From an uncultured Peptococcaceae bacterium (GTDB lineage Bacteria > Bacillota > Peptococcia > Peptococcales > Peptococcaceae), in contig CATJSX010000033.1 of NCBI GenBank assembly GCA_949743265.1, positions 1 through 64,000 on the forward strand: DNA of 64,000 nt, written 5' to 3'. Below, in pieces: positions 25,073 to 56,275 of this stretch. Below the pieces are notes generated by a model. That model worked only from the letters and a program-made list of their open reading frames with translations, searched no databases and had not been told where the DNA came from. How positions within the stretch are numbered: the stretch's first letter is position 1; the number at the start of each line of letters is the position of its first letter. A program made the position numbers and the translations under genes.

Positions 25073-25245
25073 ATAAACGCCCCCTAAAAATTCACCTTAA
25101 CGCTTTGATATAGCTTATGCGAGTCATAATAATTTGCGCCAAAATCAAAAGATAATTTTATCTTCTGTTAATAAATGATGATTTTTTTCGATTATTATTA
25201 GTAAATACTCAATTTAATTGTTTAAAAACAAAGGAGTGAATGATT

Positions 25246-26553
25246 ATGGTAAGCGGTGTTAACAGTTATTTATATTCCAATGGCATTTACAGCCGTAATA
25301 TTTACAACAATTACAATCGAGGCGCTGTTTCAGCTATTGACCGGCTACAAAAGCTAAACCGTTATGAAACCAAAAATAATTACTATACCAATTATGCTAC
25401 TCGCACTTTGAATCAATCGGCGCAACAATTTTTAAAAACTTATCAATCCGACTATCAGCAGTTAAAACAAGCGGCTGGCGCTTTAGATCAATATACCCCC
25501 AATAACGTATGGAACAATATCATCGCCACCAATGACGATACAGAAGTTGCCCAAATACAAAATCATTATTCGTCTCAAGTCAAAGGCCGTTATTCCCTTG
25601 AAGTCAAGCAACTGGCACAAGCGCAACGCAACACATCGACTGCTTTAAATAGTAATGAAACAGCCGCTTTAGACAAAGGCTATCTGGAAATCATTTCTGG
25701 CGGCAATCGTCATACGGTAACGGTTGACGGCGCTGGCAAAACAAATCAAGAACTACTGGAAACCATGGCAAAAGACATCAACAGTCAAAAAATGGGCTTG
25801 ACTGCTTCGGTTATCAGCCAAAACGGTCAAAGTCAGCTGGTTCTTGCCGGCGACAAAACCGGCTATGGTCATGATTTCACCGTCAGCGGTTCTCAAGAAG
25901 TTCTCCAACAAACGGGACTGCACAACGTTAAACAAACGGCGCAAGACGCTCAATACACATTTAATGGTCAAGAGCGTCATTCCCAAACAAACGATGTCGC
26001 ACTAGATAGTTATCGCGTCAGTGCAACGTTAAAAAGCGTCGGTCAAACAACTATTGACTTTGCTACTGATAGTGATACCGTCAAAAAAGCCGTCAATAAA
26101 TTGGTAGAAGCACACAACAACACCTTAAAAACATTAAATGACAATGTACAAATGGGTACTGCCGTAACCAATCAGCTAAAAAATCTAACGCGCCCACCCA
26201 TCGCCGAAGAATCAATGAAAGCTCTCGGCTTATCTTATCAAAAAGATGGCAAATTAGGCTTTGATGAAAAAACTTTCGCTCAAGCCTATGCCCAAGACGC
26301 CTCTAACGTCAAAAATCTTCTGGGCGGCTCTTATAGCGTTGCCAGAGGTTTACTTGACGACGCACAAAAAGCGTTATCTCAACCATCTTACAAATTAGTT
26401 GATGGCGTCAACGCTCAAAAAAGTTTTGATGAATACTTCAAACAACAAATTGAAGAAAATCCTTTCCGCCTTTACAACAGTTTTACCAACCGCGGCGGCT
26501 ATAATCTCATCAATTTCAATACAATGGGATTATTTTTAAATAGACTTATTTGA
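25246..26553 (+). CDS. FliD-like flagellar filament-cap protein, orphan
   Basis: 435 aa. The region around residues 110-130 (GRYSLEVKQLAQAQ) is the classic start of the FliD D1 domain, and residues 260-360 (TIDFATDSDTVKKAVNKLVEAHN ... LGGSYSVARGLLDD) match the FliD C-terminal domain. The N-terminus is Asn/Tyr-rich and unlike normal FliD. There is no signal peptide. AAGGAG lies 9 nt before ATG 25246. No other flagellar gene is present, so it may be a repurposed secreted or structural protein. Confidence 0.7.
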   Translation: MVSGVNSYLYSNGIYSRNIYNNYNRGAVSAIDRLQKLNRYETKNNYYTNYATRTLNQSAQQFLKTYQSDYQQLKQAAGALDQYTPNNVWNNIIATNDDTEVAQIQNHYSSQVKGRYSLEVKQLAQAQRNTSTALNSNETAALDKGYLEIISGGNRHTVTVDGAGKTNQELLETMAKDINSQKMGLTASVISQNGQSQLVLAGDKTGYGHDFTVSGSQEVLQQTGLHNVKQTAQDAQYTFNGQERHSQTNDVALDSYRVSATLKSVGQTTIDFATDSDTVKKAVNKLVEAHNNTLKTLNDNVQMGTAVTNQLKNLTRPPIAEESMKALGLSYQKDGKLGFDEKTFAQAYAQDASNVKNLLGGSYSVARGLLDDAQKALSQPSYKLVDGVNAQKSFDEYFKQQIEENPFRLYNSFTNRGGYNLINFNTMGLFLNRLI

Positions 26554-26602
26554 GCATCGCCAAAATGAATTTTTCGCGCAGCGCTTTAATCAAGCTAAGC
26601 TC

Positions 26603-26640
26603 GGCAAAAACGCATCATCATGAACTGATGCGTTTTTGCC
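26603..26640. terminator. Terminator after the FliD-like gene
   Basis: Perfect 15-bp stem GGCAAAAACGCATCA with its complement and an internal T5. Confidence 0.7.
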
Positions 26641-26729
26641 ATGCGCCGAATGTCATAATCATGCCGTCTATGCTATTAAACCTATTTTATATAATGCTCA
26701 ATCAGTAAAAGAAAGGAAGTGTTTCATTG

Positions 26730-27656
26730 ATGAAAGGATTAGAACTATCAAAAAAATATTATGACGAAATCTGTGCGCCGCTGATTCATGATAAATTTCC
26801 TGATTATGAGCGCCGTATTGCCGCTGGACTAGCTGGTGAAGGCTCCCAATGTTTTGGTTACGACGACGAATTATCTCGGGATCATGATTGGGGCGCCGCT
26901 ATTTGTTTGTGGCTGACCAAAGACGATTACCAAGCTATCGGCAATGATTTGAAACAAGAATTGCGCGCTTTACCGCGCACTTTTTACGGCTATCCTTGCG
27001 ATCATGCCGCTACTTTTGGACAAGATAGCACAGGCGTTATGACTATTGACGATTTTTACCGCAAATTTATCACCGTATCCGGCATTCCCCAAACTTTAGA
27101 GCAATGGCGACAGATTGGCTCTAATTCATTAGCCATGGCGACTAACGGCAAAGTTTTTCGTGATGACTTAGGTGAATTTAGTCATATCAGGCAAGAATTG
27201 CGCAAAGGCTATCCAGCTGACGTCCGCAAGAAAAAATTGGCTTATTACTGCCTGCTGGCGGCACACAGCGGACAATACAATTTGCCGCGTATTGTTCAAA
27301 GAAACGATAATGTAGCCGCTCAACTGACACTAACGGAATTTATCCACAGCAGCCTGAATATCATTTTTCTGTTAAATAACGCTTATGCACCCTACTATAA
27401 ATGGATTTATCGCTCGTTAACAGAACTCACCATCTTAGGCAAAGAATTGGCGCCGCTCTATCATACATTATGCATTTCTGGAACGTGGACGGATAAATTG
27501 CAGCTAGTAGAAACTATCTGTCAAAACTTGATTAACGAATTGCAAAGCCAACGTTTAAGTACAAGCAATAGTGATTTTCTACTGGAACATGGCCACAGCG
27601 TTCGTGAACAAATTGCCGACCAATCTTTACGCCGTATGAACCCTTGGCTGGAATAA
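26730..27656 (+). CDS. DUF4037 nucleotidyltransferase-like protein
   Basis: 308 aa. N-terminal nucleotidyltransferase-like motif GEGSQCFGYDDELSRDHDWG (GS ... DHD pattern) followed by a helical DUF4037 domain. The family is thought to transfer nucleotides or to act as antitoxin-like proteins, but no substrate is established. ATG 26730 is preceded by AAAGGAAG; a TTG at 26727 is an alternative start. Confidence 0.8.
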   Translation: MKGLELSKKYYDEICAPLIHDKFPDYERRIAAGLAGEGSQCFGYDDELSRDHDWGAAICLWLTKDDYQAIGNDLKQELRALPRTFYGYPCDHAATFGQDSTGVMTIDDFYRKFITVSGIPQTLEQWRQIGSNSLAMATNGKVFRDDLGEFSHIRQELRKGYPADVRKKKLAYYCLLAAHSGQYNLPRIVQRNDNVAAQLTLTEFIHSSLNIIFLLNNAYAPYYKWIYRSLTELTILGKELAPLYHTLCISGTWTDKLQLVETICQNLINELQSQRLSTSNSDFLLEHGHSVREQIADQSLRRMNPWLE

Positions 27657-27673
27657 ATTCTGTCAGAGAAACC

Positions 27674-27707
27674 AAGAAGCCGCTTAATGCTATGCAAGCG
27701 GCTTCTT
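27674..27707. terminator. Terminator after DUF4037
   Basis: Twelve-base stem AAGAAGCCGCTT with its complement; short T-rich tail. Confidence 0.65.
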
Positions 27708-27791
27708 GTGTTGTCAAACAACAAAACTTAGAAAAAGTTGATAAAATGTTGAAACTTTAGCAGGATAATGAGCAAAAGGAGTGACCATACC

Positions 27792-28459
27792 ATGAAGTTG
27801 CTAATTTGCGATGACGAAGACGATATTTTGATGATGCTGCAACGATTTCTAAGCGCCAAAGGCTATGACCTTCTTTTGGCAAAAAACGGTGAAGAAGCGT
27901 TAAAACAGGCGCAGCACCAGCCCGATCTGATTTTATTAGATATTGCAATGCCGCCACCCGATGGTTTAGAAGTCTGCCGCCGTATTCGACGCTTTCTTGA
28001 TTGTCCCATTTTATTCTTGAGCGCTCGCATCAGCGAAAACGATAAAGTCAAAGGCTTTGCCAGTGGCGGCGACGATTATATTATCAAACCATTTTCTTTA
28101 ATAGAATTGGAGGCTCGCATTGCCGCTCATCTGCGTCGTCAGCACCGCGCACTAGACAGAGGACACATCAAATTCGCCCATGATTTATCTATTGATTATC
28201 AAAGACACGCTGTTTACTACAAAGAAGAAAAAATCAATTTTGCCAAAAAGAATTTGAGATTATTGCCCTTTTATCACAAAATGCTGGTCAAGTTTTTGAT
28301 AAAGAGCGTATTTACGAAGCGATTTGGGGCTATGACAGCGACGGAGACAGTAGTGTCGTTGCTGAACATATTCACCGAATCCGCGCCAAACTCGGCATTA
28401 TTGACAATCACACTTATATTGAAACAATTTGGGGCTGTGGATACAAATGGCTAAAATAA
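27792..28459 (+). pseudogene. OmpR-type response regulator, frameshifted
   Basis: Receiver domain intact: acidic pair in LLICDDEDD, phospho-acceptor Asp in LILLDIAMPPPDG, Ser in LFLSAR and Lys in YIIKPFS. After residue about 150 the open frame turns into nonsense. Re-reading from 28250 in the -1 frame gives a proper OmpR winged helix (EFEIIALLSQN ... EAIWGYD ... RIRAKLG ... TIWGCGYKW) that stops at 28459 and overlaps the histidine kinase start. Adding one A to the five-base run at 28245-28249 restores the protein (about 222 aa). The zero-frame AAA AAG resembles part of a slippery site, but the preceding base is C rather than A, so ribosomal frameshifting is unproven. Start ATG 27792 follows AAAAGGAGTG. 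Confidence 0.8.
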
Positions 28460-29625
28460 AAACATGGTTCAACAATTTGCCACTAAAACAAAGCATTACT
28501 TTATTTATTGTCAGTTTTGCTTTGTTAGCCTTTGCTCTAATGATGCTAACTGCCATACTATGCCAAATAGGAACGGATGCTATCCATCAAAAATATTCTG
28601 CCGCAGCAGAAAGATATTATTTAACTAACACGCAAGGTCAACAGTTGGGCGAAGGCACGCTCATTTATACCTCGCCACTGTCCGTCACCGCCATTGATGA
28701 AAAACGATTGCTAATACTCAATAAATTACCTTTGTTAACAACGCCACTTTACTGCGTGCTGTGCCTACTGGCTGCTACATTTTTCTTTTACCGCAGCAAA
28801 TTAAAAAAACCCCTAGCACAGCTAACGCTAGCGGCAGAAAAAATTGCTAAGCAAGACTTGGATTTTACCATAACTTATGCTGGTCAAGACGAATTAGGGC
28901 AACTGTGCCAATCATTTGAACAAACGCGGATAGCTTTGGCGCAAAGTTATCAAAATCTCTGGCAGCAAATGACGGAACGCCAACAACTAAACAGCGCCTT
29001 GACCCATGATCTGCGCACACCATTGACCATACTAAAAGGCTATCATGAACTTTTAACACTTTCTGGCACTGAGCAAGACGCAGCGGTCATTGTTGACGCT
29101 ATAGGCAGACAAATTCAACGACTGGAACACTATCTGGATACATTTCACCACTTACAACGCTTAGAAGATCGAGAAACGATGCCTCAAACGCTTGACTGTT
29201 TCGTTTTTGCCCAAACCCTTGCGCAAACAGCTACAGTATTTTGCCAAAAGCAGCAAAAACAATTAAAAACGATCTTTCAGCTAAATGTTGACTCATTAAC
29301 AGCTGACGAACTTATGATTCAACAGGTATTTGATAATTTGCTCGCCAACAGCGTCCGCTATGCTCACAGAACTATTACCATCATCGTCAAAACCACAGAA
29401 AATGGTTTAACGCTATCAGTCGCTGATGATGGCGACGGTTTTTCATCAGAAGCATTGAAAAAAGGCTGTTCACCTTACTTTACCGAAGAAAACAACCGCC
29501 AAACTCATTTAGGTTTGGGTCTGTATATTGCTCAATTGCTTTGCCAACGCCATCATGGTACGCTAACGCTTGCCAATCATGAAAAAGGCGCTATTATCAC
29601 CGCTTTTTTTGGTCAATGTCGATAA
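28447..29625 (+). CDS. Sensor histidine kinase
   Basis: 392 aa, two membrane helices (residues about 15-38 and 95-115) with a very short external loop, a HAMP linker, HisKA with the phospho-acceptor in ALTHDLRTPLTILKGY, and an HATPase domain with the N-box QVFDNLLANSVRYA, DDGDGF and LGLGLYIAQ. The start ATG 28447 lies inside the last codons of the response regulator, a translational coupling that supports the corrected frame of that gene. The small loop suggests sensing of membrane stress or a membrane partner rather than a large ligand. Confidence 0.85.
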   Translation: MAKIKTWFNNLPLKQSITLFIVSFALLAFALMMLTAILCQIGTDAIHQKYSAAAERYYLTNTQGQQLGEGTLIYTSPLSVTAIDEKRLLILNKLPLLTTPLYCVLCLLAATFFFYRSKLKKPLAQLTLAAEKIAKQDLDFTITYAGQDELGQLCQSFEQTRIALAQSYQNLWQQMTERQQLNSALTHDLRTPLTILKGYHELLTLSGTEQDAAVIVDAIGRQIQRLEHYLDTFHHLQRLEDRETMPQTLDCFVFAQTLAQTATVFCQKQQKQLKTIFQLNVDSLTADELMIQQVFDNLLANSVRYAHRTITIIVKTTENGLTLSVADDGDGFSSEALKKGCSPYFTEENNRQTHLGLGLYIAQLLCQRHHGTLTLANHEKGAIITAFFGQCR

Positions 29626-29648
29626 AAAGTTGATATTTTTCCTTTATA

Positions 29649-29679
29649 ATCTTCATCAGCACTGGTGAAGATTTTTTTA
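29649..29679 (+). terminator. Terminator after the histidine kinase
   Basis: AATCTTCA and TGAAGATT stem followed by T7, so the next gene is probably expressed separately. Confidence 0.75.
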
Positions 29680-29759
29680 TGCCCAATTTGGTCAATAAAA
29701 ACTATCGCCATGTGCTGAAAAAAATCTGCCGATTTTACATCAGCAAAAGGATCTGAAGT

Positions 29760-30331
29760 ATGATGAAATATTTAGTCCATATCAATCTGTACCAAATTTG
29801 GAGTTATCTCACGTTAATGCTAATCATGCTATTTAGTGGTTTCTTTATTATAGCTACGGTCAATAACCAACAACCCTGCAATCGCAGCCAAACTATTTTA
29901 CCTTTACCCCTTAGTTTAGCCGTTATTTTTTTCACTATCAACGGATTGATTGCTTTGGTTATTTTTGGCTTGGATAGTTTAAATAATTGTACTCGCTTTA
30001 TTTTTGATAATCAGCTAATTGCTCTTCATTTAGGCTATATCTGCTGGCTGTTCATGCAAATTTTTTTGATATGTTCCGCTTTACTATGCATTGGTACGTT
30101 ATCATTTTGTTTTTTCACGCTTTGTCCTTGGCAACCAACTATTTTAGCAGCCATATGGCTATTTTACGAAAATACTATTCATGGTTCATCTATCAAATTC
30201 AGTTGCTTTCTATCAATGCCATCAGCCATTTTTCTAGTATTATCCTTCACTCGATCTTGATTGTGCCTATCATATTTGTCACGATTTGCAGCAGTACCTT
30301 TTTCTATTGTAAACATTATAAATTTCGCTAA
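29760..30331 (+). pseudogene. Small polytopic membrane protein, frameshifted
   Basis: The first frame encodes 166 aa with about four hydrophobic segments (29760-30260). Near the end the -1 frame continues as a further membrane helix (ILIVPIIFVTICSSTFFYC) and stops at 30331. Adding one T to the five-base run at 30229-30233 joins them into about 190 aa. Size and position after a two-component system recall the permease half of peptide-antibiotic resistance transporters, but no ATPase gene is adjacent and I cannot name the family. AAGG precedes the start. Confidence 0.55.
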
Positions 30332-30383
30332 AACAGCAAAGAGACGCGCGATTTTTATCTACGCGCATCTCTTTGCTGTTTAT
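30331..30383. terminator. Terminator after the membrane protein
   Basis: Long stem AAACAGCAAAGAGA...TCTCTTTGCTGTTT starting at the corrected stop codon, which supports that frame. The remaining stretch to 30658 has no visible gene. Confidence 0.75.
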
Positions 30384-30658
30384 TTTTTAAACCAAATTAT
30401 CCAATTTTGATCATTGCAGCAAGCGCTACTATTTCAGTCAATGATTTTTTTGATCATGTCCCACGCTACAAAAATTTTTCCCAACAACGCTAATCTTCAG
30501 CGCCACAATTTTTTCTAAAATAATCATTGGCCTTCAGAATCTTTTTACCAAAATCCGCTGGATAAAGACTAGCGTCGCTAATAAAAAATATGATATACTG
30601 TATTCATCTGATACTTTTCGTGCAAACTATGTGGCTTACTAAAAAGGGGAGAAAAATT

Positions 30659-31966
30659 TTGAACAAACGCATACAAGCTCAGCGAGAATTTTTTGAATCA
30701 GGACGTACTCGTCCCGTCAAATGGCGTTTGGAACAACTAAACTATTTAAAAAACGCCGTCAAGCAGTACGAACAAGATCTCTTAAACGCTGTTGAAGCCG
30801 ATCTGGGAAAAGGCGCTTTCGAAGAATTTGCCGCCAAAATGAAATTATTTTACGAAGAAATCAACTATTGCAGCAAACATTTAGAGGAATGGACAAAACC
30901 AGAAAAAATCAAAACTAATGCTAGCCAAGGCTCAGGTAAATGTTTTCTCACTTATGAACCAAGAGGTGTTGTACTAATCGTCGCTTCTTGGACATATCCG
31001 GCGCATTTGGTGCTGACATCAATGGTTTCAGCAATTTGTGCTGGCAATTGTGTCGCTTTGAAAACTTCTGACTATCTGATTCATATTTCTCAAACCATCA
31101 AAGAAATGATTCGCGAATGCTTTCCCTCGGAATTTTTGGACGTTTATTCCGGCGGAGCTGAGGTCACTCAAGCGCTAATCAATACCAATTTGGATTATAT
31201 CTTGTTTAGTGGCAGCGCTAGTGAAGGCAAAGACATTATGCGTCTGGCCAGTGAACATCTCATTCCATTAACTTTAGAATTAAGCGGCAAAAACCCTTGC
31301 ATTATAGACCGCAGCGCTAATTTGCCATTGACCGCCAAACGTATCATGTGGGGCAAATTATTAAGCTGTGGGCAAACCTGTGTAGCGCCAGATTATGTTT
31401 TGGTTCACACCGATGTCAAAAAAGAACTTGCCAAAGAATTGATCAAAACTTGTGATGAACTATTCCCAAAAGGAGCACTGACTAATCCCAATTATGGTAA
31501 AATCATCAATGATCAACATTTTGACCGTTTAGTTTCTATGCTAGATATGGGCAAAATCATTTATGGTGGTCAATATAATAAAGAAACTTTAAAAATAGCA
31601 CCTACCATTATTGATCAGGCTCGTTTGGATAGTCCGTTAATGAAAGAAGAAATTTTCGGTCCTTTACTGCCACTATTCAATTTTGAATCCCTCGATGACG
31701 TGTTCGCTTTAATTCGCCGACGCCATAGACCGCTGGCACTATATATTTTTTCAGAAGACGAAAAAATCCAGCAAAAAATCATGAACAATGTTGCTTATGG
31801 CGGCGGATGTATCAACGATACTATTTTACATGTCACTAATCCTAAAATGCCTTTCAGTAGTAACAATATGGGCGGCTATCATGGAAAAGCTGGTTTCAAT
31901 ACTTTTTCGCACCAAAAAAGTATTTTAAAACAATCAGCAACAAAATCATCAACTTTATGGGGATAA
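30659..31966 (+). CDS. Class 3-type aldehyde dehydrogenase
   Basis: 435 aa NAD(P)-dependent aldehyde dehydrogenase, closest in layout to the short ALDH3 group. Catalytic Cys in KLLSCGQTCVAPDYVLV, general base Glu in LTLELSGKNP, nucleotide-binding region around LFSGSASEGKDIM, and EEIFGPLLPL. The C-terminal FSSNNMGGYHGKAGFNTFSHQKS matches the family end. The start is a TTG at 30659, 7 nt after AAGGGGAG; the frame is open upstream without a ribosome site. Substrate not predictable; ALDH3 enzymes act on medium- to long-chain or aromatic aldehydes. Confidence 0.85.
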   Translation: MNKRIQAQREFFESGRTRPVKWRLEQLNYLKNAVKQYEQDLLNAVEADLGKGAFEEFAAKMKLFYEEINYCSKHLEEWTKPEKIKTNASQGSGKCFLTYEPRGVVLIVASWTYPAHLVLTSMVSAICAGNCVALKTSDYLIHISQTIKEMIRECFPSEFLDVYSGGAEVTQALINTNLDYILFSGSASEGKDIMRLASEHLIPLTLELSGKNPCIIDRSANLPLTAKRIMWGKLLSCGQTCVAPDYVLVHTDVKKELAKELIKTCDELFPKGALTNPNYGKIINDQHFDRLVSMLDMGKIIYGGQYNKETLKIAPTIIDQARLDSPLMKEEIFGPLLPLFNFESLDDVFALIRRRHRPLALYIFSEDEKIQQKIMNNVAYGGGCINDTILHVTNPKMPFSSNNMGGYHGKAGFNTFSHQKSILKQSATKSSTLWG

Positions 31967-32014
31967 ATCACTTAATATCACAATCCCATTCCCCAAAATT
32001 CAATAGAACACAAT

Positions 32015-32151
32015 TTATCCACAGAAATATCCACAAAACACACATTTTATACACAAATAAAACAGGCGCAAATTATCTTTTTTTGTCGAGACTGGGGATA
32101 ATTATTAACATCTGTGGATAACTTATGCACAAAACTCATATCTTTTCCACA
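32015..32151. promoter_or_regulatory. Cluster of DnaA boxes
   Basis: Four exact matches to TTATNCACA: TTATCCACA 32015-32023 (+), TTATACACA 32047-32055 (+), TTATCCACA 32113-32121 (-) and TTATGCACA 32123-32131 (+). Near matches: ATATCCACA 32027, TTATCCCCA 32093 (-), TTTTCCACA 32143. All lie in 137 bp between genes. It is likely a DnaA-titrating or DnaA-regulated site; an origin function is less likely given gyrBA at the right edge. Confidence 0.75.
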
Positions 32152-32153
32152 TA

Positions 32154-32203
32154 AAAAGCGGCCCTTGCTGTGATTATTTTGTCACAGCAAGGGCCGCTTT
32201 TTA
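32154..32203. terminator. Strong bidirectional terminator beside the DnaA boxes
   Basis: Perfect 21-bp stem (AAAAAGCGGCCCTTGCTGTGA with its complement), 7-nt loop, A- and T-runs on the two sides. Confidence 0.85.
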
Positions 32204-32288
32204 TCTTTTAAGAACGCACAAACTAGCAAACAAATTTTCTAACGCAATTAAATACACAAAACTAAGCAATAACCCTGCTGAAAATAAT

Positions 32289-32340
32289 AAACAGTTTAAA
32301 TTTGTATAGAATAAATTTTTTTAACAAATTCAAACTGTTT
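32289..32340. promoter_or_regulatory. Long inverted repeat upstream of T3
   Basis: Arms AAACAGTTTAAATTTGT (32289-32305) and ACAAATTCAAACTGTTT (32324-32340) pair at 16 of 17 positions, 18-nt loop. There is no T-run after it. It is a candidate operator or leader structure for the T3-PDE3 operon. Confidence 0.5.
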
Positions 32341-32454
32341 GCTATCTGTACCACCATCCATTAGAATAACTATAGAAGATATTTTTAGTACTAATTAAAC
32401 TCTTCCAAAAACATTGTATTATCATGCAATCCTAAATCAACAGAGGTGATATTT

Positions 32455-33903
32455 ATGGAAAAATCTACTCAGAAAAAAGATTTAACGCTTCTTCATATGA
32501 TTATTATAATTTTATTGATGTTCGGGTTTGGCTATTTACCAACCGTTGGTACTATTACCACCGTAGGAATGAAAACATTAGGAATATTCATCGGCTTATT
32601 ATACGGTTGGTCAACAATCGGCATGCTTTGGCCCAGCATACTAGGTATTTTTGCTTTTGGATTTTCAGGACATGGTACAGTAAAAGAAATGTTAGCAATG
32701 GCTTTTAGTAATGATATCTTCATTTTCTTGATATTCATCTTAGTAATTTTAGAAATGTTGACAGACAGCGGTGCAGTAAATGTAATTGTTAATTTCTTTT
32801 TAACAAGAAAGTCATTGGAAGGGCACCCTTGGATTTTTTCTTTCATTTTTTTACTGTCTTCTGGATTATTGTGCATCTTTGGTCAAGCTTTTGCAGGTAT
32901 CTTATTATGCTGGAGTATGATTGAAACACTATCACAAAAAGTTGGCTATAAACCTTATGATAAATATCCAACCATGATGCTTATTGGCGTTATTATTAGC
33001 GCATCTGCGGTCCAATTGATGGTCCCATTTAAAGGTATTTGTTTGGTCATTTTAGGCACATATGCCACCATGACGGGGAACGCTATCAGCTATCTGTCTT
33101 ATATGGCTGTTATGATTCCTGCTGGTTTAGCTTTTTTAGCACTATACCTTACATTTTTTAAAATGATTTTCAAACCTGATATGAAGCCTTTGGAAACTGT
33201 AAAGGTCAGCGAGATTTTAGGCACCACACCACCCGTTACAAAGCGTCAAAAAGCAACCTTATTGGCCTTTGGTTTCTTTTTAGCAACGTTACTAATTCCT
33301 GGTTGTTTGCCAGCAACTTCTCCTATTGTTACTTTAACTAATACTTTAGGTAGCTCTGGACTAACTGCCTTTAGTGTAATTCTATTTATGATGATAAAAA
33401 TAGACGGGGAGCCGTTACTTGATTTTAGCAAACAAGCTCGTCATCTTAATTGGTCTGTTACATTTATGGTTGGCGTTTTGATGATGATGACATCGCTTAT
33501 ATTAGCAGAAAGTACAGGGATTCGTGAAACTGTTATTACGCTATTGAGTCCAGTATTAGCAGGGTATTCTGGTTTTGTATTATTAGTTGTTGTATTTATG
33601 ATTTCTATTGTTTTAACTAATTTTATGAACAACATGGTCGTTGGTGTTATTATGACTTCTATTCTATTAGCATTGAGCAGTACGCTAGAAGTAAATACGG
33701 CGGTTGGCGTTTTAATGATTATTACTGCCTCAAATGCAGCCTTTTTAACCCCAGCAGCAGCACCAACAGTAGCAATGCTTTTCGCTAAAAAAGATTGGTT
33801 AAAAGGAAAAGATGTTTTTCGCATAGGTTTTATGAATGTTTCAATTATCATATTGATCGGCTTAACGATCATAGTAGGTCTTGGCAGTATTATTTTAACA
33901 TAA
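32455..33903 (+). CDS. SLC13/DASS-like anion carrier, T3
   Basis: 482 aa polytopic carrier related to T1, T2, T4 and T5. It has the N-terminal TVGMKTLGIFIGLLYGWST signature and, in the second half, a TNFMNNMVVGVIM segment corresponding to the SNNA substrate loop. Start ATG 32455 follows GAGGTG. It is only 28 nt upstream of PDE3, so the two are surely co-transcribed; this is the tightest transporter-enzyme pair in the window. Confidence 0.85.
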   Translation: MEKSTQKKDLTLLHMIIIILLMFGFGYLPTVGTITTVGMKTLGIFIGLLYGWSTIGMLWPSILGIFAFGFSGHGTVKEMLAMAFSNDIFIFLIFILVILEMLTDSGAVNVIVNFFLTRKSLEGHPWIFSFIFLLSSGLLCIFGQAFAGILLCWSMIETLSQKVGYKPYDKYPTMMLIGVIISASAVQLMVPFKGICLVILGTYATMTGNAISYLSYMAVMIPAGLAFLALYLTFFKMIFKPDMKPLETVKVSEILGTTPPVTKRQKATLLAFGFFLATLLIPGCLPATSPIVTLTNTLGSSGLTAFSVILFMMIKIDGEPLLDFSKQARHLNWSVTFMVGVLMMMTSLILAESTGIRETVITLLSPVLAGYSGFVLLVVVFMISIVLTNFMNNMVVGVIMTSILLALSSTLEVNTAVGVLMIITASNAAFLTPAAAPTVAMLFAKKDWLKGKDVFRIGFMNVSIIILIGLTIIVGLGSIILT

Positions 33904-33931
33904 ATTATCTCATGTTTAGGAGGAATGCTTT

Positions 33932-35920
33932 ATGACAAAAGCAAAAAGAGTAATGGTATTAGGTTTTGATGGAGGGGATCCCGTTTTTGCAGAAAAACTC
34001 ATCGCCGAAGGAAAACTACCTAACTTCAAAAAAGTAAAAGAAATGGGCGTTACCACAAAAATGAAAGGTATGATTGGAGCGTTACCAACTATAACACCAC
34101 CTTGCTGGGCAACTTTGGCAACTGGTGCTTGGCCGGGTACTCACGGTATTACTTGTTTCTGGAATCATACCATCGGAAAAAGTTTTGATGAATTGGATAT
34201 GGGCTGGAACTCACAACAATGTGAAGCAGAGTTTATTTGGGATGCTTTTTCTAAAGCGGGCAAAAAAACGATTTTGTTCAACTACCCAACATCTTTTCCG
34301 CCAACCACTTATGAAAATGTTTATCAAGTAGATGGCACATCTGCTCAACCATATAATCAAAATTTCCCTGATTACGATAAATATATTAAAGCAAACGAAA
34401 GTTATCAGGAAATTGTCTCCAAATTCCATAATCCTAATGATACAGGCGCTGGTTGTGTCATGACTGAAGAAGTGGAACATAAAAAATTTGAAATCGTAGA
34501 AAATGATCATGAAAGATCATTCACAGATTTATTTGCAGGTGGCGCTGTAAACGAAGGAAGCACTGTAGCCAATGAAGCAGAATGGTTATCTCTAATCGAC
34601 GATACTGAAACACCAATCAAACCAGCAAAAGGTTGGAATGATGTTCCCGAAGGAACCAAAGAATTTTCTATCCCATTTGCCGGAGGATTATTAAGAAGAA
34701 TTGCTTTATTAATCCCTGATGCTGATGGAAAATATAGAAAAGTAAAATTGTATAAGAAGAAAAATGGTGACTTTTTAGGCGAAGCAACTATAGGACAAAA
34801 TTTCAGCGAATGGATTTATGACACGACTTATGATCAAAGAAATGCAGAAGTTGAAGTTGCCTATAAAATGAAATTATATGAATTAGAAGAAGATGGTAGC
34901 AATGCCGTTCTTTATATTACAAAATCTTGTCAGTTAAAGTGCAATCCAAAATATTTCGTACCACAATCATTAGGACAAGAATTATTAGATAAGATCGGGC
35001 CTATTGTTGCTGGCTCTGATATTGGTCGTCCACATGCTGAAGTCGGTTGCGATGCTTGGCATGAACACTACAAATGGTGTGCTGATGCTATTAACTATTT
35101 ACTTGACAATAAAGAATGGGATTTATTCTACAGCCATTTACATTCTCTCGATGTTGCTAATCATAATATGATTACAGATATCGTACCCGGTAGCCCAAGA
35201 TATGAAAAGTTCTATAACTTAATGGTGCAATATTATATCAATGCTGATGAAGTCGTAGGAAAATTATTAAGACACTTAGATGATGGCGAAACAGCCTTAT
35301 TTATTGTATCCGACCATGCAGGCGTTCCACGTCATCCGGGATACAAATGGCCTATGTTAGGTGATCCGTGGGGAATTGTTACCGACTTTATGAAAGATTT
35401 AGGCTATGTAAAAACATATAAAGATGAAAACGGACATTCTCAAATTGATTGGAGTCAAACCAAAGCAGTTTGTCAAAGAACAGGCTATATTTATGTTAAC
35501 TTAAAAGGTCGCGATCCATATGGTATTGTAGAACCGGAAGAATATGAAGATTTGTGCCGTCAAATTCAAGACGATTTCTATAATTACCGTGATCCTGAAA
35601 CAGGAGAACGTGTCATTGAAATGATTGTTGGTCATGATGGCATGGAAGCGCTAGGTTTATATGGCGATCATGTCGGTGATCTCTACTATGTATTCACACC
35701 TAATTACTGCCGTGACCATGGAAACTCCTTCAGTAACTTGGAACACTACGGTTTCTCTATGAAGTGTTTATTCTTTGCTGCTGGTGCAGGAATCAAAAAG
35801 AATACCGTTATGGAACGTCGTGTTCGCCAAGTCGATATTGTTCCAACCATTTGTGAAATGACAGATAGTCCTGTGCCTAACAAATGTGAAGGTGGCATTA
35901 TTTATCAATTATTTGAATAA
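33932..35920 (+). CDS. Alkaline-phosphatase-superfamily phosphodiesterase, paralogue 3 (PDE3)
   Basis: 662 aa. Catalytic set: Asp13 (LGFDGGDP; others have DGMD/DGLD), Thr55 (TITPPCW), D-x-x-x-H in HSLDVANH, Asp-His in VSDHAGV (others SDHG/SDHA-Q) and His in CRDHGNS. The lid segment LGDPWGIV is present. Around the C-terminal motif it reads NSFSNLEHYG rather than DSLST...G, and it is the most divergent copy after PDE1. No signal peptide. AGGAGG precedes the ATG. Forms an operon with T3; LysR2 follows after a terminator. Confidence 0.85.
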   Translation: MTKAKRVMVLGFDGGDPVFAEKLIAEGKLPNFKKVKEMGVTTKMKGMIGALPTITPPCWATLATGAWPGTHGITCFWNHTIGKSFDELDMGWNSQQCEAEFIWDAFSKAGKKTILFNYPTSFPPTTYENVYQVDGTSAQPYNQNFPDYDKYIKANESYQEIVSKFHNPNDTGAGCVMTEEVEHKKFEIVENDHERSFTDLFAGGAVNEGSTVANEAEWLSLIDDTETPIKPAKGWNDVPEGTKEFSIPFAGGLLRRIALLIPDADGKYRKVKLYKKKNGDFLGEATIGQNFSEWIYDTTYDQRNAEVEVAYKMKLYELEEDGSNAVLYITKSCQLKCNPKYFVPQSLGQELLDKIGPIVAGSDIGRPHAEVGCDAWHEHYKWCADAINYLLDNKEWDLFYSHLHSLDVANHNMITDIVPGSPRYEKFYNLMVQYYINADEVVGKLLRHLDDGETALFIVSDHAGVPRHPGYKWPMLGDPWGIVTDFMKDLGYVKTYKDENGHSQIDWSQTKAVCQRTGYIYVNLKGRDPYGIVEPEEYEDLCRQIQDDFYNYRDPETGERVIEMIVGHDGMEALGLYGDHVGDLYYVFTPNYCRDHGNSFSNLEHYGFSMKCLFFAAGAGIKKNTVMERRVRQVDIVPTICEMTDSPVPNKCEGGIIYQLFE

Positions 35921-35999
35921 AATTGATAGATATTCCTCAAATATTATTATGTAGGCATATTTCAAAATCCAATAACTAACTGAAAATAAAACATCTAAA

Positions 36000-36039
36000 A
36001 AAGAACACCATGCAGTTATTTTTCTGCATGGTGTTCTTT
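36000..36039. terminator. Terminator after PDE3
   Basis: Fifteen-base stem AAGAACACCATGCAG with its complement between PDE3 and LysR2. Confidence 0.75.
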
Positions 36040-36255
36040 GCTATTTCAAGGTTAATAGATAGATTATTTTCCATAGATGTTGTGAATTCCATCTATTTCA
36101 AATAAAATTTCCAAAAAATAAAAAAAACGCAAATACATATTAATGAAAAATATGGTATAATAATATTAATTATAAAATAGTAAAAATCTAATTAAACCTA
36201 CTATACCTTATCGACATAGAATTTTCAACTTATCACCCTTTGAGGAGATGATCAT

Positions 36256-37227
36256 TTGCGTATCGAACAGCTATGGTATTTTAAAGAAGTAGTAGAATCA
36301 AAGTCAATCTCAAAAGCCGCGAATAAAATATTCATTACCCAACAAGCGCTTAGTCAAGCCTTATACAATTTAGAAACAGAAATAGGCGTTCAACTCTTTA
36401 TTCGTACACCTAAAGGAATCGAAGTAACTCAAAAAGGACTTATCTTTTATGAAGCTACATTGAAAGTACTTCAAAATTTTGGAGATTTAAAAACCATTTG
36501 CTGGAAAATGGAAAACGACACTACTTATGAAAAAACACCTATTATAACAGGTTCTCTTAACGTATATTGTTCTTCTATGATTTTAGATCATTTTGTTGCA
36601 CCTGTCGTTTTTCACTGCAATATGCTTTATCCAAAAGCAGAAATCAATTTAATAGAAAAAAATATTAATGCTGACATATTAACAGAAATATGCCAAACCA
36701 ATAGCATCGGCATTTTTTGTTATATTACAGGAGAATATACCAAAAATGTTAATAGCGACAGCGAAAAAAATATTTGGTATGAAAGATTATTTTTAGACGA
36801 TTTATGTATCGGTGTATCACTTCAATCATCACTAAGCAAAAAGAAACACATTAGCAACGAGGAATTTTTTCAATATCCTTTAGCAATAAGCGCTAACAAT
36901 TTATTTACTATTAACCAATTGCATCGAAAATCTCAACTACATGATGATTCCTCATCAATCAAAATCCGGTTAATGACGACAAAATGGCAAGCAGTCATCC
37001 AACTTGTCAGCGAAAATCAAGCTATAACCGTACTTCCGCGACAGTTGCTCAATCTTGAAGAAAGGATGAATAAAAAAGGAATCATTTTAATTCCTTTCAA
37101 AGAAAAATATCAATTAGCTTGCAGTATTATCAAAACACAAAACAACATTAACCCTTTAGAAAACATTTTCATTCAGGAAATCCGACGAAATTTTAATAGA
37201 ACTAATCTTATTTCAAATCATGATTGA
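36256..37227 (+). CDS. LysR-family regulator, LysR2
   Basis: 323 aa, N-terminal helix-turn-helix (ISKAANKIFITQQALSQALYNLE) and a LysR effector domain. It begins with TTG at 36256 after GAGGAGATG; the TTGCGTATCGAACAG start matches the usual M-R-I-E-Q opening of LysR proteins. Located downstream of and co-directional with T3-PDE3, the likely target. A TATAAT at 36155-36160 has no good -35. Confidence 0.85.
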   Translation: MRIEQLWYFKEVVESKSISKAANKIFITQQALSQALYNLETEIGVQLFIRTPKGIEVTQKGLIFYEATLKVLQNFGDLKTICWKMENDTTYEKTPIITGSLNVYCSSMILDHFVAPVVFHCNMLYPKAEINLIEKNINADILTEICQTNSIGIFCYITGEYTKNVNSDSEKNIWYERLFLDDLCIGVSLQSSLSKKKHISNEEFFQYPLAISANNLFTINQLHRKSQLHDDSSSIKIRLMTTKWQAVIQLVSENQAITVLPRQLLNLEERMNKKGIILIPFKEKYQLACSIIKTQNNINPLENIFIQEIRRNFNRTNLISNHD

Positions 37228-37405
37228 AGGTAATTCATATTATACGATACAAACATTCAAAAAAAATACATAAATTATCATCATATCATCTGATACGCAG
37301 ATAGGCACAACAAAGAAAAACAAAAAATAAAATTAAACAGTGCATTTTTTTACCAAATATGCGATAATATAAAAGACAGTACAGTTATTAAGGAGGTTAT
37401 TAGCA

Positions 37406-38311
37406 ATGTATGACGTTTTGATTATTGGCGCAGGACCTGCTGGCATGACTGCTGGCGTTTATACCGCTAGAGCTGGCTACAAAACAGGGTTAATCGAAGT
37501 AGGCGTTCCCGGCGGTCAGGCGGCTACCACTGATCTGATCGAAAATTATCCCGGCTTTCCCACGGGTATCAGCGGTTCGGAACTAATGCTGAAATTTTTT
37601 GAGCAAACGCAGACTTTTGGAGTAGAAATGCTTTATGAACATGTACAATCGGTAGATTTTCACGGTGATATCAAGAAAGTAACAACCAATAATGGCACTT
37701 ATGAAGCCAAAGTTGTCATTATTGCTTCCGGCGCTCATCCACGAACATTAGGCGTTAACAATGAAGGGAAATTCCGTGGGCGCGGCGTTTCTTATTGTGC
37801 TACTTGCGACGGCTTTTTCTTTAAAGACCAACCCGTAGCTGTCATAGGCGGCGGCGATACTGCTGTAGAAGAAGCGCTATACTTAACCAAAATGTGCTCA
37901 AAAGTTACTTTGATTCACCGCCGCGATCAGTTGCGCGCCAACAAAATGGCACAATCACGCGCTCTAGCCAACGACAAATTAGATATCATTTATGATACCA
38001 TTGTCGATGATATTATCGGTACCGATAAAGTATCACAACTATCACTGAGCAATCAAAAAACCGGTGAAAAATCAATTTTGGATATTAACGGTGTTTTTAT
38101 CTTTGTTGGTTATTTGCCTAACAATGATTTTTTCCCACCGGAATTAGACGTTGATCCGCAAGGATATATTCTCACTGATGAAAATTTGGCAACTAATATC
38201 AGCGGCGTATTTGCTGTTGGCGATGTACGGGCAAAAAAACTTCGTCAAGTAACGACAGCTGTTGGCGACGGCGGCTTAGTATTGCACGGTATTGAAAACT
38301 ATTTACACTAA
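37406..38311 (+). CDS. trxB: Thioredoxin-disulfide reductase
   Basis: 301 aa FAD/NAD(P)H oxidoreductase that reduces thioredoxin. FAD-binding GAGPAGMTAGVYTARAG at the N-terminus, redox-active CATCDGFF, NAD(P) motif GGGDTAVEEALYLT, and terminal FAVGDVRAKKLRQVTTAVGDGG. Full length; AGGAGG precedes the ATG. In anaerobes it serves general thiol homeostasis. Confidence 0.93.
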   Translation: MYDVLIIGAGPAGMTAGVYTARAGYKTGLIEVGVPGGQAATTDLIENYPGFPTGISGSELMLKFFEQTQTFGVEMLYEHVQSVDFHGDIKKVTTNNGTYEAKVVIIASGAHPRTLGVNNEGKFRGRGVSYCATCDGFFFKDQPVAVIGGGDTAVEEALYLTKMCSKVTLIHRRDQLRANKMAQSRALANDKLDIIYDTIVDDIIGTDKVSQLSLSNQKTGEKSILDINGVFIFVGYLPNNDFFPPELDVDPQGYILTDENLATNISGVFAVGDVRAKKLRQVTTAVGDGGLVLHGIENYLH

Positions 38312-38335
38312 TGAACTTCAGTAAAGGGGAAGCGA

Positions 38336-38473
38336 TTGAAGATTATGAACCACAAAAATGCCAAAAAAGCACAAAAAGCTGTCCTAATCGTTCTGGTAAT
38401 TTTGCTTTGTATTGGACTAATGTTGCCTTCTTTGGCACAGATTGTTTTGGCATTAAGCGGATTACTATACTAA
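38336..38473 (+). CDS. Tiny single-pass membrane protein
   Basis: About 45 codons from TTG 38336 (42 from ATG 38345). A basic N-terminus (NHKNAKKAQK) is followed by one hydrophobic helix (AVLIVLVILLCIGLMLPSL). The layout resembles Prli42/DUF4044-type mini-proteins of Firmicutes, but similarity cannot be tested here. AAGGGG is 6 nt before the TTG; a terminator follows at 38488. The overlapping frame beginning at 38311 gives an unlikely protein. Confidence 0.55.
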   Translation: MKIMNHKNAKKAQKAVLIVLVILLCIGLMLPSLAQIVLALSGLLY

Positions 38474-38487
38474 AAAATTTCTTTAAT

Positions 38488-38524
38488 AAAAGGTTCCAAA
38501 GTTAACAGCTTGGAACCTTTTTTG
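38488..38524. terminator. Terminator after the mini-protein
   Basis: AAAAGGTTCCAA and TTGGAACCTTTT stem with T-run. Confidence 0.8.
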
Positions 38525-38641
38525 TTGAAAAAGAACGTCCTTTATAGAAATCATCAAGATAAACTTTTCTTTATTGGACGAAAAAATCCTATAAGTATGC
38601 TATAATAATTTTATCACACATTTTATCCAAAGGAGAACGCT

Positions 38642-41600
38642 ATGGATTTTGATCAACTGATTGAACAAAAAGCTTTTAATCAAGATACTATTACTAAAGG
38701 TTTGTACTATTTTTCAAAAAATGCTGTCGACAAAATCAAAATAACCACGACCCAAAATCAGCCTAATCAATTAAACTTAATCGCCAGCGGTATCGTTGTC
38801 GGCAATAACGGCACTTATGAAACCATGGTTATCTTTCGCCATAACCAGCTCATCACGGCTCATTGTGATTGTCCAGCTTTTGAAATGTGGGGAGAACGAC
38901 CACTTTGCAAACATTTAGTGGCCTTTTTAAAAGAAATTGAAAAATTGCAGAATGATAATTCGCCTACACCTACGCGTCCTCGTCATAACAGTCTAGCCCA
39001 TTATTGGACAGAACAATTGCTGCGGCAATATCAGCCAAACTTCGATAACTCTTTGACGACTTTTGACAAAGTTCATTTGCTGCCTCAGCTCTTTTATGAC
39101 AATCATAATCATCAATTTTATCTCACTTTCACTATCGGCATTAAAAAACCATATGTGCTAAAGAGCCTCCATCAATTTGCTGACCGTATGCGAAACGGTG
39201 AAATATTCCGCTACGGTAAAGGATTGGAATTTGCCCATGTGCGAGAAAATTTTCACCAAGACAGTTTATTTTATTTGGATCTAATCATAGAAACCAACGC
39301 TACAGTAGACACTTTAGTGGGACTTAGTCATTATTACATTCCTAAAGGACAAGTATTTGGTCGTGAATTATATCTAAATCCCAACAATTTTGATCATTTT
39401 TTTGACTACCATTTAGATAAAACAGCACCAGAAATGTCACTTTCTCGTTTACATAAAGACCAAGTTATTTTTATTGACGAAGATCCCGAACTCAAAATCA
39501 CTATTGTAGAAGATGGGGACAGTAATTATCGACTAAACTGTAATTTGAGCCATTATTTGTTATACCAAACGTTAAAATACAGCTATTTTATCTATTCTAA
39601 GCATTTTTATCGTTGTAGCGAATCATTTTGCCGCATCATTTTTCCTATTCTACATAATTTAAAGCACGATCGTGAGGAACAGCTCATTTTTTCTGACCAA
39701 CAACTGTCTGCTTTTTTGGGATTGGTTTATCCACAAGCGCAAAAATTGGTGCAATTTCATATTGATGACAAAATTATCGAAAAATTAACGCCGGCAACGC
39801 TAAACGCCTGCCTTTATTTTGATTATCCGCAAACTAATTCCGTACGAGGACGAGTAGAATTTTACTACGGCGACATCGTAATCAACCCTTTAGCTGAGCC
39901 TGAAGAATCTTTAGTCCCTTACCGCGAAAAAACCAAAGAGTATCAAATTTTAGCCCTTCTGCTAAAATATCATTTTTCGGTCAATGAAGATGAATATCTT
40001 TTGATTGGTGAAGAAAGTATTTACGAATTTTTAACTGAAGGACTCAATGAATTATTGCCTTTGGCACAAATTATGGTAGAAGATAAGCTGGAGAAAATGA
40101 AAGCCAAACATTCCTTTAGTTTATCTATGGATATTACCATGACAAAAGGCATCATTGAACTTAAATTTGACGAGAGCAAATTTTCTACCGAAGAACTGCT
40201 AACGGTAATCAAAGCTTACCAAGCAGGAAAAAAATACGTCATACTCAAAGACAACACTTTTTTGGATATCGTCAACCCTTCAACAAAATTACTTAATGAT
40301 ATGCTGACTGATTTTGATTTAAACGCCAAAGCCTTAAATAAAGGCATACTAAAACTCCCCGCTTACCGTGCCTTGTATTTAAACGACCTTTTAGAAGAAA
40401 CACCGGAAGTAACGACACACAAAAGCCATTCTTATAAAGATATGGTGCGTGATATTTTAAAGCCCATTGATACTGATTTCGATGTTCCTGCCGGACTTTC
40501 AACGCAGCTAAGGCAGTATCAACTGCTGGGCTATCGCTGGCTAAAAACATTATCTTATTACAATTTTGGCGGTATTTTAGCTGATGATATGGGTTTAGGA
40601 AAAACTATTCAAGCTATCGCTTTTTTACTGAGTGAACTGCCAGAAGCAACCAAACCTAGTATCATTGTCGCACCAACATCACTAATTTATAATTGGCAAG
40701 CAGAAATAACGAAATTTGCACCAGAATTATCTTATCGTATGATTGCTGGTACTGCGGAAGATCGTAAAAATCAGTTGAAAAATATTGCTGCTGGTGAAAT
40801 CGTTATCACCTCTTATGATACTTTAAAACGCGATATTGACAACTATCACGATTTGGAATTCGAATTTTGCATTGCTGATGAAGCCCAGTATATCAAAAAT
40901 CACTATACGCAAAACGCCCAATCCATTAAATCGTTGAACAGCCGCGTCCGCTTTGCCCTTACTGGCACACCGATGGAAAATTCACTGGCTGATCTATGGA
41001 GCATTATGGATTTTGTCATGCCAGGATATCTTTTAAAATGGCAGAAATTCAAATCCATTTATGAAATCCCCATTACTCGTTATGATGACAGAGAACGGTT
41101 AAAACATTTGCAGCGACAAGTAACACCGTTTTTACTGCGGCGGTTGAAAAAAGACGTGCTCACCGAGCTACCTGACAAAATTGAAAGCACTATGTATGCT
41201 CAACTTAATAAAGAAGAAGAAAAAATTTATCATGCGCAATTAGCGCAAAGCCAAAAAACATTCCTCGAAGAAATCGCTGCCAACGGCGTTGAACGCAGTC
41301 AAATCAAAATCTTAGCGTTATTGACTCGCCTAAGACAAGCCTGTTGTTCGCCCAAACTGTTTTTGGATAATTATAACCAACCCTCCAGTAAATTAACATT
41401 GTGTTTAACTATTATCAACGAAAAAATACAGAGCGGCAGTCAAATTCTGATCTTCAGTCAATTTACCACTATGCTGGATTTAATTGCCGATGAATTAAAA
41501 AAGCAGCAAATTGATTATCTTATGCTGACTGGCGCCACCAAAAGCAGCGCTCGTATGCATATGGTCAGCCAATTCAATGACGGTCGCATTCCTGTTTTCT

Positions 41601-41908
41601 TAATTTCTTTAAAAGCTGGCGGCGTAGGTTTGAATCTAACTGCCGCTGATACCGTCATCCATTTTGACCCTTGGTGGAATATCAGCGCTCAAAACCAAGC
41701 CACTGACCGCGCTCACCGTATCGGACAGGATAAAAAAGTCCATGTCATCAAACTAATAGCTAAAGATACCATCGAAGAAAAAATTGAAATTCTGCAAAAT
41801 AAGAAAAAAAATTTGACCGATGCTATTATTACCGAAGGACAAACTTTCCTTACGCAACTAAATCAAAACGAACTGGAAGATTTGTTCAGTTTTCAAATTT
41901 ATCAATAA
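38642..41908 (+). CDS. SNF2-family helicase with SWIM zinc finger
   Basis: 1088 aa Swi2/Snf2 ATPase. N-terminal SWIM finger (CDCPAFEMWGERPLCKHLVAF; C-x-C ... C-x-H), a long middle region, then the helicase core from about residue 625: Walker A DDMGLGKTIQA, DEAQ box, motif III LTGTPMENSLADLW, and the C-terminal helicase half with SLKAGGVGLNLTAAD and DRAHRIGQ. It remodels protein-nucleic-acid complexes, possibly around RNA polymerase or DNA repair. AAAGGAG precedes the ATG. Confidence 0.9.
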   Translation: MDFDQLIEQKAFNQDTITKGLYYFSKNAVDKIKITTTQNQPNQLNLIASGIVVGNNGTYETMVIFRHNQLITAHCDCPAFEMWGERPLCKHLVAFLKEIEKLQNDNSPTPTRPRHNSLAHYWTEQLLRQYQPNFDNSLTTFDKVHLLPQLFYDNHNHQFYLTFTIGIKKPYVLKSLHQFADRMRNGEIFRYGKGLEFAHVRENFHQDSLFYLDLIIETNATVDTLVGLSHYYIPKGQVFGRELYLNPNNFDHFFDYHLDKTAPEMSLSRLHKDQVIFIDEDPELKITIVEDGDSNYRLNCNLSHYLLYQTLKYSYFIYSKHFYRCSESFCRIIFPILHNLKHDREEQLIFSDQQLSAFLGLVYPQAQKLVQFHIDDKIIEKLTPATLNACLYFDYPQTNSVRGRVEFYYGDIVINPLAEPEESLVPYREKTKEYQILALLLKYHFSVNEDEYLLIGEESIYEFLTEGLNELLPLAQIMVEDKLEKMKAKHSFSLSMDITMTKGIIELKFDESKFSTEELLTVIKAYQAGKKYVILKDNTFLDIVNPSTKLLNDMLTDFDLNAKALNKGILKLPAYRALYLNDLLEETPEVTTHKSHSYKDMVRDILKPIDTDFDVPAGLSTQLRQYQLLGYRWLKTLSYYNFGGILADDMGLGKTIQAIAFLLSELPEATKPSIIVAPTSLIYNWQAEITKFAPELSYRMIAGTAEDRKNQLKNIAAGEIVITSYDTLKRDIDNYHDLEFEFCIADEAQYIKNHYTQNAQSIKSLNSRVRFALTGTPMENSLADLWSIMDFVMPGYLLKWQKFKSIYEIPITRYDDRERLKHLQRQVTPFLLRRLKKDVLTELPDKIESTMYAQLNKEEEKIYHAQLAQSQKTFLEEIAANGVERSQIKILALLTRLRQACCSPKLFLDNYNQPSSKLTLCLTIINEKIQSGSQILIFSQFTTMLDLIADELKKQQIDYLMLTGATKSSARMHMVSQFNDGRIPVFLISLKAGGVGLNLTAADTVIHFDPWWNISAQNQATDRAHRIGQDKKVHVIKLIAKDTIEEKIEILQNKKKNLTDAIITEGQTFLTQLNQNELEDLFSFQIYQ

Positions 41909-55985: not shown

Positions 55986-55999
55986 AAATATTATTCGTA

Positions 56000-56275
56000 A
56001 ACGCGATGACGGAGAGAGTAAGTAAATTTTTCATCTTTCAGAGAGTGCTGACAGCTGAAAAAGCACAGATGAAAATTTGCCCAAGATGGCTCCAAGAGCG
56101 GCGCACCGAGCGGCATTAGTCGTAAGACTGCGATGGGATTGCCCATTACAGCAAGCGAGTATAACTTATAATTATTAAGCGTACTCCTAGAGGTTGCTTT
56201 TTGCAAAAATAGCAACAAATTGAAGTGGTAACACGGGTATTTACTCGTCTTCTTTTAGAAGACGAGTTTTTTTGT
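56000..56275 (+). promoter_or_regulatory. T-box riboswitch, probably Met-specific, with terminator
   Basis: The leader begins with the stem I base and AGTA loop (GATGACGGAGAGAGTA), has an ATG triplet preceded by GCACAG as a plausible specifier, the T-box sequence near 56220-56236 (TGAAGTGGTAACACGGG, containing the TGG element that pairs with the uncharged tRNA end) and a terminator ACTCGTCTTC...GAAGACGAGT with T7 at 56243-56275. It would raise metNIQ expression when tRNA-Met is uncharged. The Met assignment rests on the ATG and the downstream genes. Confidence 0.85.

Follow-up and report, generated by a model that had tools for sequence, protein, structure and literature searches.

A DnaA-box cluster conserved at the 3′ end of an aldehyde dehydrogenase gene in Peptococcaceae, a candidate site of DnaA titration outside oriC

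We analyzed a 64,000-nt stretch of DNA (the window; positions 1 to 64,000 of contig CATJSX010000033.1, here C33) from an uncultured Peptococcaceae bacterium. A cluster of DnaA boxes, followed by a predicted intrinsic terminator, occupies part of the intergenic region that separates an aldehyde dehydrogenase (ALDH) gene, with its stop codon at 31966, from the next gene at 32446. The features are listed below, with offsets counted from the first exact box and with G numbers denoting other genomes.

30590..31966 (+): ALDH gene (PF00171, E 5e-65), the partner gene retained in relatives
32015..32023 (+): exact DnaA box TTATCCACA, core offset 0
32027..32035 (+): near-match box ATATCCACA, offset +12
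32036..32044 (+): degenerate third core position AAACACACA, offset +21; TTATCCACA in G004, G007 and G008
32047..32055 (+): exact DnaA box TTATACACA, offset +32; at +32 in G010 and at +33 in G004, G007 and G008
32093..32101 (-): near-match box TTATCCCCA
32102..32110 (+): near-match box TTATTAACA
32113..32121 (-): exact inverted DnaA box TTATCCACA; in relatives the inverted box lies at +76 to +79 instead
32123..32131 (+): exact DnaA box TTATGCACA
32143..32151 (+): near-match box TTTTCCACA
about 32151..32204 (+): perfect long hairpin followed by T, a predicted intrinsic terminator directly 3′ of the boxes (20 pairs, 11 G-C)
32446..33903 (+): downstream anion-permease-like gene (CitMHS/DASS); not adjoining the cluster in the relatives read

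The original prediction described four exact TTATNCACA boxes on both strands, and these are present at 32015 (+), 32047 (+), 32113 (-) and 32123 (+). It also described three near matches in the same 137 bp; near matches do occur, but there are four of them within 32015-32151, each with one mismatch, at 32027 (+), 32093 (-), 32102 (+) and 32143 (+). An additional one-mismatch box at 31958 (-) overlaps the ALDH stop codon, and 49 bp separate this stop codon from the start of the first exact box. The hairpin at 32151-32204 folds with -43.6 kcal/mol (z -12.5) and is predicted to be a strong terminator. In each of the four relatives that carry four or more exact boxes, a hairpin followed by T likewise lies 3′ of the boxes (z -4.0, -6.2, -4.6 and -6.1). 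Because the boxes are located between the ALDH stop and the terminator, the cluster is probably transcribed as part of the 3′ end of this unit. Rfam gave no match at the cluster; elsewhere in the window, a T-box leader was identified at 55997-56255 (RF00230, 95.6 bits). We considered and rejected an RNA element, as the consensus fold was weak (-8.7 kcal/mol, covariation term +1.2) and built largely of the inverted boxes themselves, and the conservation described below is therefore taken to act at the DNA level.

Across the whole window, the total of exact boxes was unremarkable (8 versus 3.7 expected from shuffles), and one-mismatch boxes occurred at chance level (87 found, 93.5 expected), a figure that favors reading the cluster as boxes that arose by accident in AT-rich intergenic DNA. 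The arrangement of the exact boxes, however, argues against this reading. When the window was dinucleotide-shuffled 1000 times, no 137-bp stretch contained more than two exact boxes, compared with four in the cluster. The full listing for the genome (3.04 Mb, 208 contigs) comprised 145 exact boxes, 91 of the form TTATSCACA and 54 of the form TTATWCACA, and when 145 boxes were scattered randomly over 3.04 Mb, four within 137 bp arose in none of 20,000 trials. Applying a criterion of at least three exact boxes within 250 bp, we identified five clusters genome-wide, whereas random scatter yields 0.009 on average. Two of the five belong to oriC (four and three exact boxes), and the three outside it are the ALDH cluster (four), C49:44759-44841 (three) and C152:98149-98324 (six). 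The original prediction had set its proposal against a genome in which equally dense clusters are scattered throughout; dense clusters are few here, and therefore this picture does not hold.

To assess conservation, we searched 13 genomes of the family for the ALDH and obtained matches in nine of them (10 genes). Nine ALDH 3′ ends were readable, G003 being excluded because its contig ends within the gene. Four to five exact boxes were present within 180 bp of the ALDH stop at five of these nine ends (the source genome, G004, G010, G007 and G008), which represent two genera. The 3′ end in G009 was weak, with one exact box, a few near matches and 18 of 26 letters of the core defined below, and the remaining three (the nearest ALDH homologues in G001 and G002, and the second gene of G004) had no exact boxes. 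Around more distant ALDHs, two exact boxes within 250 bp were found at 0 of 40 named loci. The six cluster-associated ALDHs formed one clade (UFBoot 97 / SH-aLRT 91) in a tree that took in 18 of the 40 named loci and left out G003, and the source protein shared about 42-46% identity with the others.

Within the ALDH clusters, the box spacing was retained at 0, +12, (+21) and +32/33. The +12 position is an exact box in G010, and also in G004, G007 and G008 when offsets are taken from their first TTTTCCACA-like box. The position of the inverted box differed, at +76 to +79 in relatives versus +98 in the source genome. In an alignment anchored on the boxes, identity between the source genome and relatives was 67-76% in box columns and 38-52% elsewhere. 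We rejected a conserved neighborhood as the cause of this conservation: no other protein match supported synteny around the ALDHs between genera, and other matches on the ALDH contigs were scattered and mostly at 27-39% identity, the best being 75% in L071 (about 19 kb away from the ALDH) and 44% in L078. The gene downstream of the cluster also differed between the source genome and the relatives. The ALDH-linked box cluster is real, non-random and conserved. Because it is conserved in five genomes of two genera, and given the shuffles, the scatter trials and the model search below, an origin by chance or composition is exceedingly improbable.

The two other extra-oriC clusters of the genome were also traceable among relatives. 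The cluster at C152:98149-98324 (L008:8150-8325), which has more exact boxes than the ALDH cluster, lies between yigZ-like and thioredoxin-like genes and is syntenic in 10 of the 13 family genomes (the source genome and nine others). The cluster at C49:44759-44841 (L004:4760-4842) lies upstream of the gene for a family-3 solute-binding protein; with its counterparts in G013, G017, G028 and G029 it spans three families, and an alignable element with this abutting box pair is present in two other families of the class. We further constructed a sequence-only model (R1) from the five ALDH clusters and used it to search 13 genomes of the family, 21 of the order and 46 of the class. Scores above 80 bits were confined to the five model members, and weaker matches fell at recurrent places, among them the yigZ/thioredoxin and solute-binding protein loci just described. 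Family f2 contained three clusters of nearly one spacing (L109, L110 and L111; 0/+51-52/+119-121/+131-133/+140-142), which adjoin an etfB-type gene twice and tsaD once. The f2 cluster of G017 lies downstream of tsaD (NCBIfam gcp_kae1); B. subtilis likewise has a strong DnaA site downstream of gcp, which we take to be the same gene. A genome of family f7 carried seven exact boxes at L117:690-860, with a core of 26/26. Among Clostridia, the matches L120 and L122 were similar small clusters, without a match to the reference genes; L120 (NZ_CP154629.1), with a three-box cluster, is a 2.63-Mb circular record filed as an Acetoanaerobium noterae plasmid but chromosome-like by size.

The non-oriC clusters share a 30-bp core of three head-to-tail boxes at 0/+12/+21, which we scored against TTATNCACA-NNN-TTATCCACA-TTATCCACA (26 fixed letters). 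Scores at the ALDH loci were 21 (source genome), 25, 22, 25, 24 and 18 (G009), with 24-25 in G004, G007 and G008; the window's own copy is degenerate at the third box. The yigZ/thioredoxin loci scored 25-26 in nine of ten cases (18 in G002), the solute-binding protein loci 25 in all five, the f2 clusters 26 in all three, and 13 further R1 loci 17-26. R1 was built from core-bearing clusters and most loci were fetched with it; therefore, these counts are biased, and finding the core at those loci is in part expected. Evidence that does not depend on R1 comes from the C152 and C49 clusters of the source genome, found by box counts (25/26 each), the synteny of the yigZ/thioredoxin and solute-binding protein loci, and the G009 ALDH locus, which lies outside the model and whose 18/26 equals background level. 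The core was not found at ten dnaA loci (scores 16-19), and 40 unrelated 3-kb stretches scored at most 18. A derivation of the core from E. coli was rejected. Partial matches occurred in 5374 of 5426 genomes, and the single annotated copy that we opened (26 bp) is situated between 16S rRNA and purH rather than at datA or DARS. The exact 30-bp core is also present on two IMG/VR viral contigs (L118:770-799 and L119:4946-4975), possibly as phage sites that bind host DnaA.

The tie to the 3′ end of one gene could indicate a role in ALDH expression. DnaA bound 3′ of the ALDH stop might block or shape the ends of the ALDH transcript, or control the next gene. The cluster is tied to the ALDH in six genomes (weakly in one) and lies ahead of the terminator, as such a transcription element would, and eight gene sets of B. 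subtilis are under direct DnaA control, several of them beside its box clusters, according to the portion of PMC8203912 available to us. However, the downstream gene is not the same in the source genome and the relatives, and the predicted terminator stands between the boxes and that gene. None of the listed promoter-like sites falls within 32015-32151, and such sites are about as numerous as in shuffled sequence. Moreover, the core recurs beside unrelated genes (yigZ/thioredoxin, the family-3 solute-binding protein and etfB), and we consider a function in transcription unlikely.

We also determined the position of the cluster relative to the replication origin. The dnaA gene is located on the contig of the window, just past the window end, at C33:68602-70026 (-), and gyrA lies inside the window at 61306-63744 (-). 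A count of boxes around dnaA, as the original prediction had proposed, revealed the two oriC clusters, which flank the gene at 68227-68356 and 70109-70214. The ALDH cluster is thus about 36 kb from oriC on one contig (36-38 kb for the two oriC clusters), in agreement with the predicted minimum of 32 kb. In relatives, the ALDH cluster and dnaA are on separate contigs, so the distance is measured in the source genome only; therefore, the proximity to oriC, which is important to titration, may not be conserved.

We weighed these data against the possibility of a second replication origin, a former one, or a partial copy of oriC. Over about 39 bp (32093-32131), the cluster is similar to the half of oriC upstream of dnaA (E 4.9e-4 when searched against the source genome), with a local alignment score of 47 compared with at most 27 in 2000 shuffles, which favors such an origin. 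On the other hand, this oriC-like stretch was not found in the relatives' ALDH clusters, where scores were at the level of other box-rich DNA, and in the relatives' dnaA-upstream DNA the match to this right half of the cluster was not clearly present, although it is good within the source genome. The proposed GC-skew profile showed no lasting reversal, as the cumulative skew, after a flat portion, keeps falling past 32 kb. In oriC, seven consecutive TAG trios occupy 68171-68191, whereas TAG/TAA runs of at least three are absent from 31900-32460; this is a weak test, since only two of nine dnaA loci had a run of at least four. The oriC proper is present 36 kb away, and the core is not found there. 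The suggestion in the original prediction that the cluster is a second origin element is not supported on the grounds of skew, trios and context, including the separate contigs of cluster and dnaA in relatives, and we regard an origin function as highly improbable. As a separate observation, large open frames occupy the + strand in 25240-41908, with the cluster amid them, and oppose a leftward fork from dnaA; GC skew is flattened across this block, which may be an inversion or insertion.

Among the three functions originally offered, titration is the best supported by the position of the cluster (outside oriC, intergenic and 36 kb from oriC), its conservation and the presence of YabA in the genome. 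YabA was found in nine of the 13 family genomes, including the source genome; of the 14 control genomes, just two yielded it, those of B. subtilis and Lactococcus lactis. We therefore favor, with moderate confidence, the interpretation of this site as a Bacillus-type chromosomal DnaA-box cluster (DBC) that titrates DnaA. DnaA would load on the three to four head-to-tail boxes (0, +12, +21 and about +33) and on further boxes behind them, some inverted. Because the cluster is only about 36 kb from oriC, it would be copied soon after initiation, so that its number would double early; the doubled cluster would take up free DnaA and help to postpone the following initiation. The genome has at least two further sites of this kind (C152 and C49), which may act with it as a dispersed set. 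We infer DnaA binding, titration and the effect on initiation timing from sequence. The recurrence at the same gene in relatives suggests a real control element, one that is probably holding DnaA back. In B. subtilis, joint deletion of six DBCs leads to early initiation, according to passages of reviews (PMC5295017 and PMC13220808).

More speculatively, the clusters may form a class-wide dispersed family of DnaA-control elements built on a fixed 30-bp module, TTATNCACA-3-TTATCCACA-0-TTATCCACA, which is not found at oriC, so that DnaA would assemble there differently than on the origin; in addition, transcription through the ALDH copy, in a transcribed 3′ end, might sweep DnaA off and couple metabolism to replication timing, similar to tRNA read-through for IHF at datA. 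We offer this combined proposal tentatively and do not expect it to hold in full. To our knowledge, extra-oriC DnaA-box clusters are known mainly from a few model bacteria, and in the open-licence literature on DnaA boxes we found no paper devoted to an ALDH-linked element. With three loci traceable by synteny across genera, one of them across families, and a fixed core geometry that the dnaA loci read do not show, these clusters offer a comparative handle on a long-standing question: do extra-oriC clusters act as passive sinks, or are they shaped nucleoprotein sites? They also name a short DNA module, the 30-bp core, for in vitro testing.

Compared with known systems, the cluster most resembles the DBCs of B. 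subtilis. Both have several consensus boxes outside oriC in intergenic DNA, number a handful per genome and occur in a YabA-type genome; here the boxes are clustered beyond chance and kept in related genomes. The six strongest in vitro DnaA-binding regions outside the B. subtilis oriC are intergenic and contain 4-11 boxes, and one B. subtilis cluster likewise lies downstream of genes (gcp/ydiF; PMC4447404, Table 1). The flanking genes are not the same, and DnaA binding here is a prediction.

The main rival to titration is a site that alters the nucleotide state of DnaA, by DARS-like reactivation or datA-like hydrolysis, rather than acting as a passive sink. In E. coli strains such sites similarly conserve boxes and spacing (PMC4585315 and PMC5742627, in the parts accessible to us). 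The essential datA boxes all point one way, as in the core here, and DARS1 and DARS2 share a fixed three-box core spacing between separate loci, whereas box I of the DARS core is opposed to boxes II and III (all from the accessible part of PMC5742627). The core here, compared by orientation, is unidirectional, with an inverted box only further on, and this single orientation would fit datA better than DARS. Like our cluster, datA is near oriC and just downstream of a transcription unit reading toward the boxes, according to the available portion of PMC10950094. However, datA needs IHF and follows tRNA genes, whereas here the ALDH precedes the boxes and a predicted terminator follows; the E. 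coli sites as a group depend on IHF, and DARS2 also on Fis. Furthermore, the B. subtilis regulators are described as targeting DnaA oligomerization, not its nucleotide, in the text available from PMC5295017. We consider a nucleotide-state site rather unlikely, and DnaA titration remains our preferred reading. With its own oriC, the cluster has the box consensus and the 39-bp stretch in common; oriC differs in flanking dnaA, in its seven TAG trios and in being without the 30-bp core. By its sequence features, the cluster is a known kind of element, an extra-oriC DnaA-box cluster, whose conserved core geometry and apparent 3′-end position are noteworthy.
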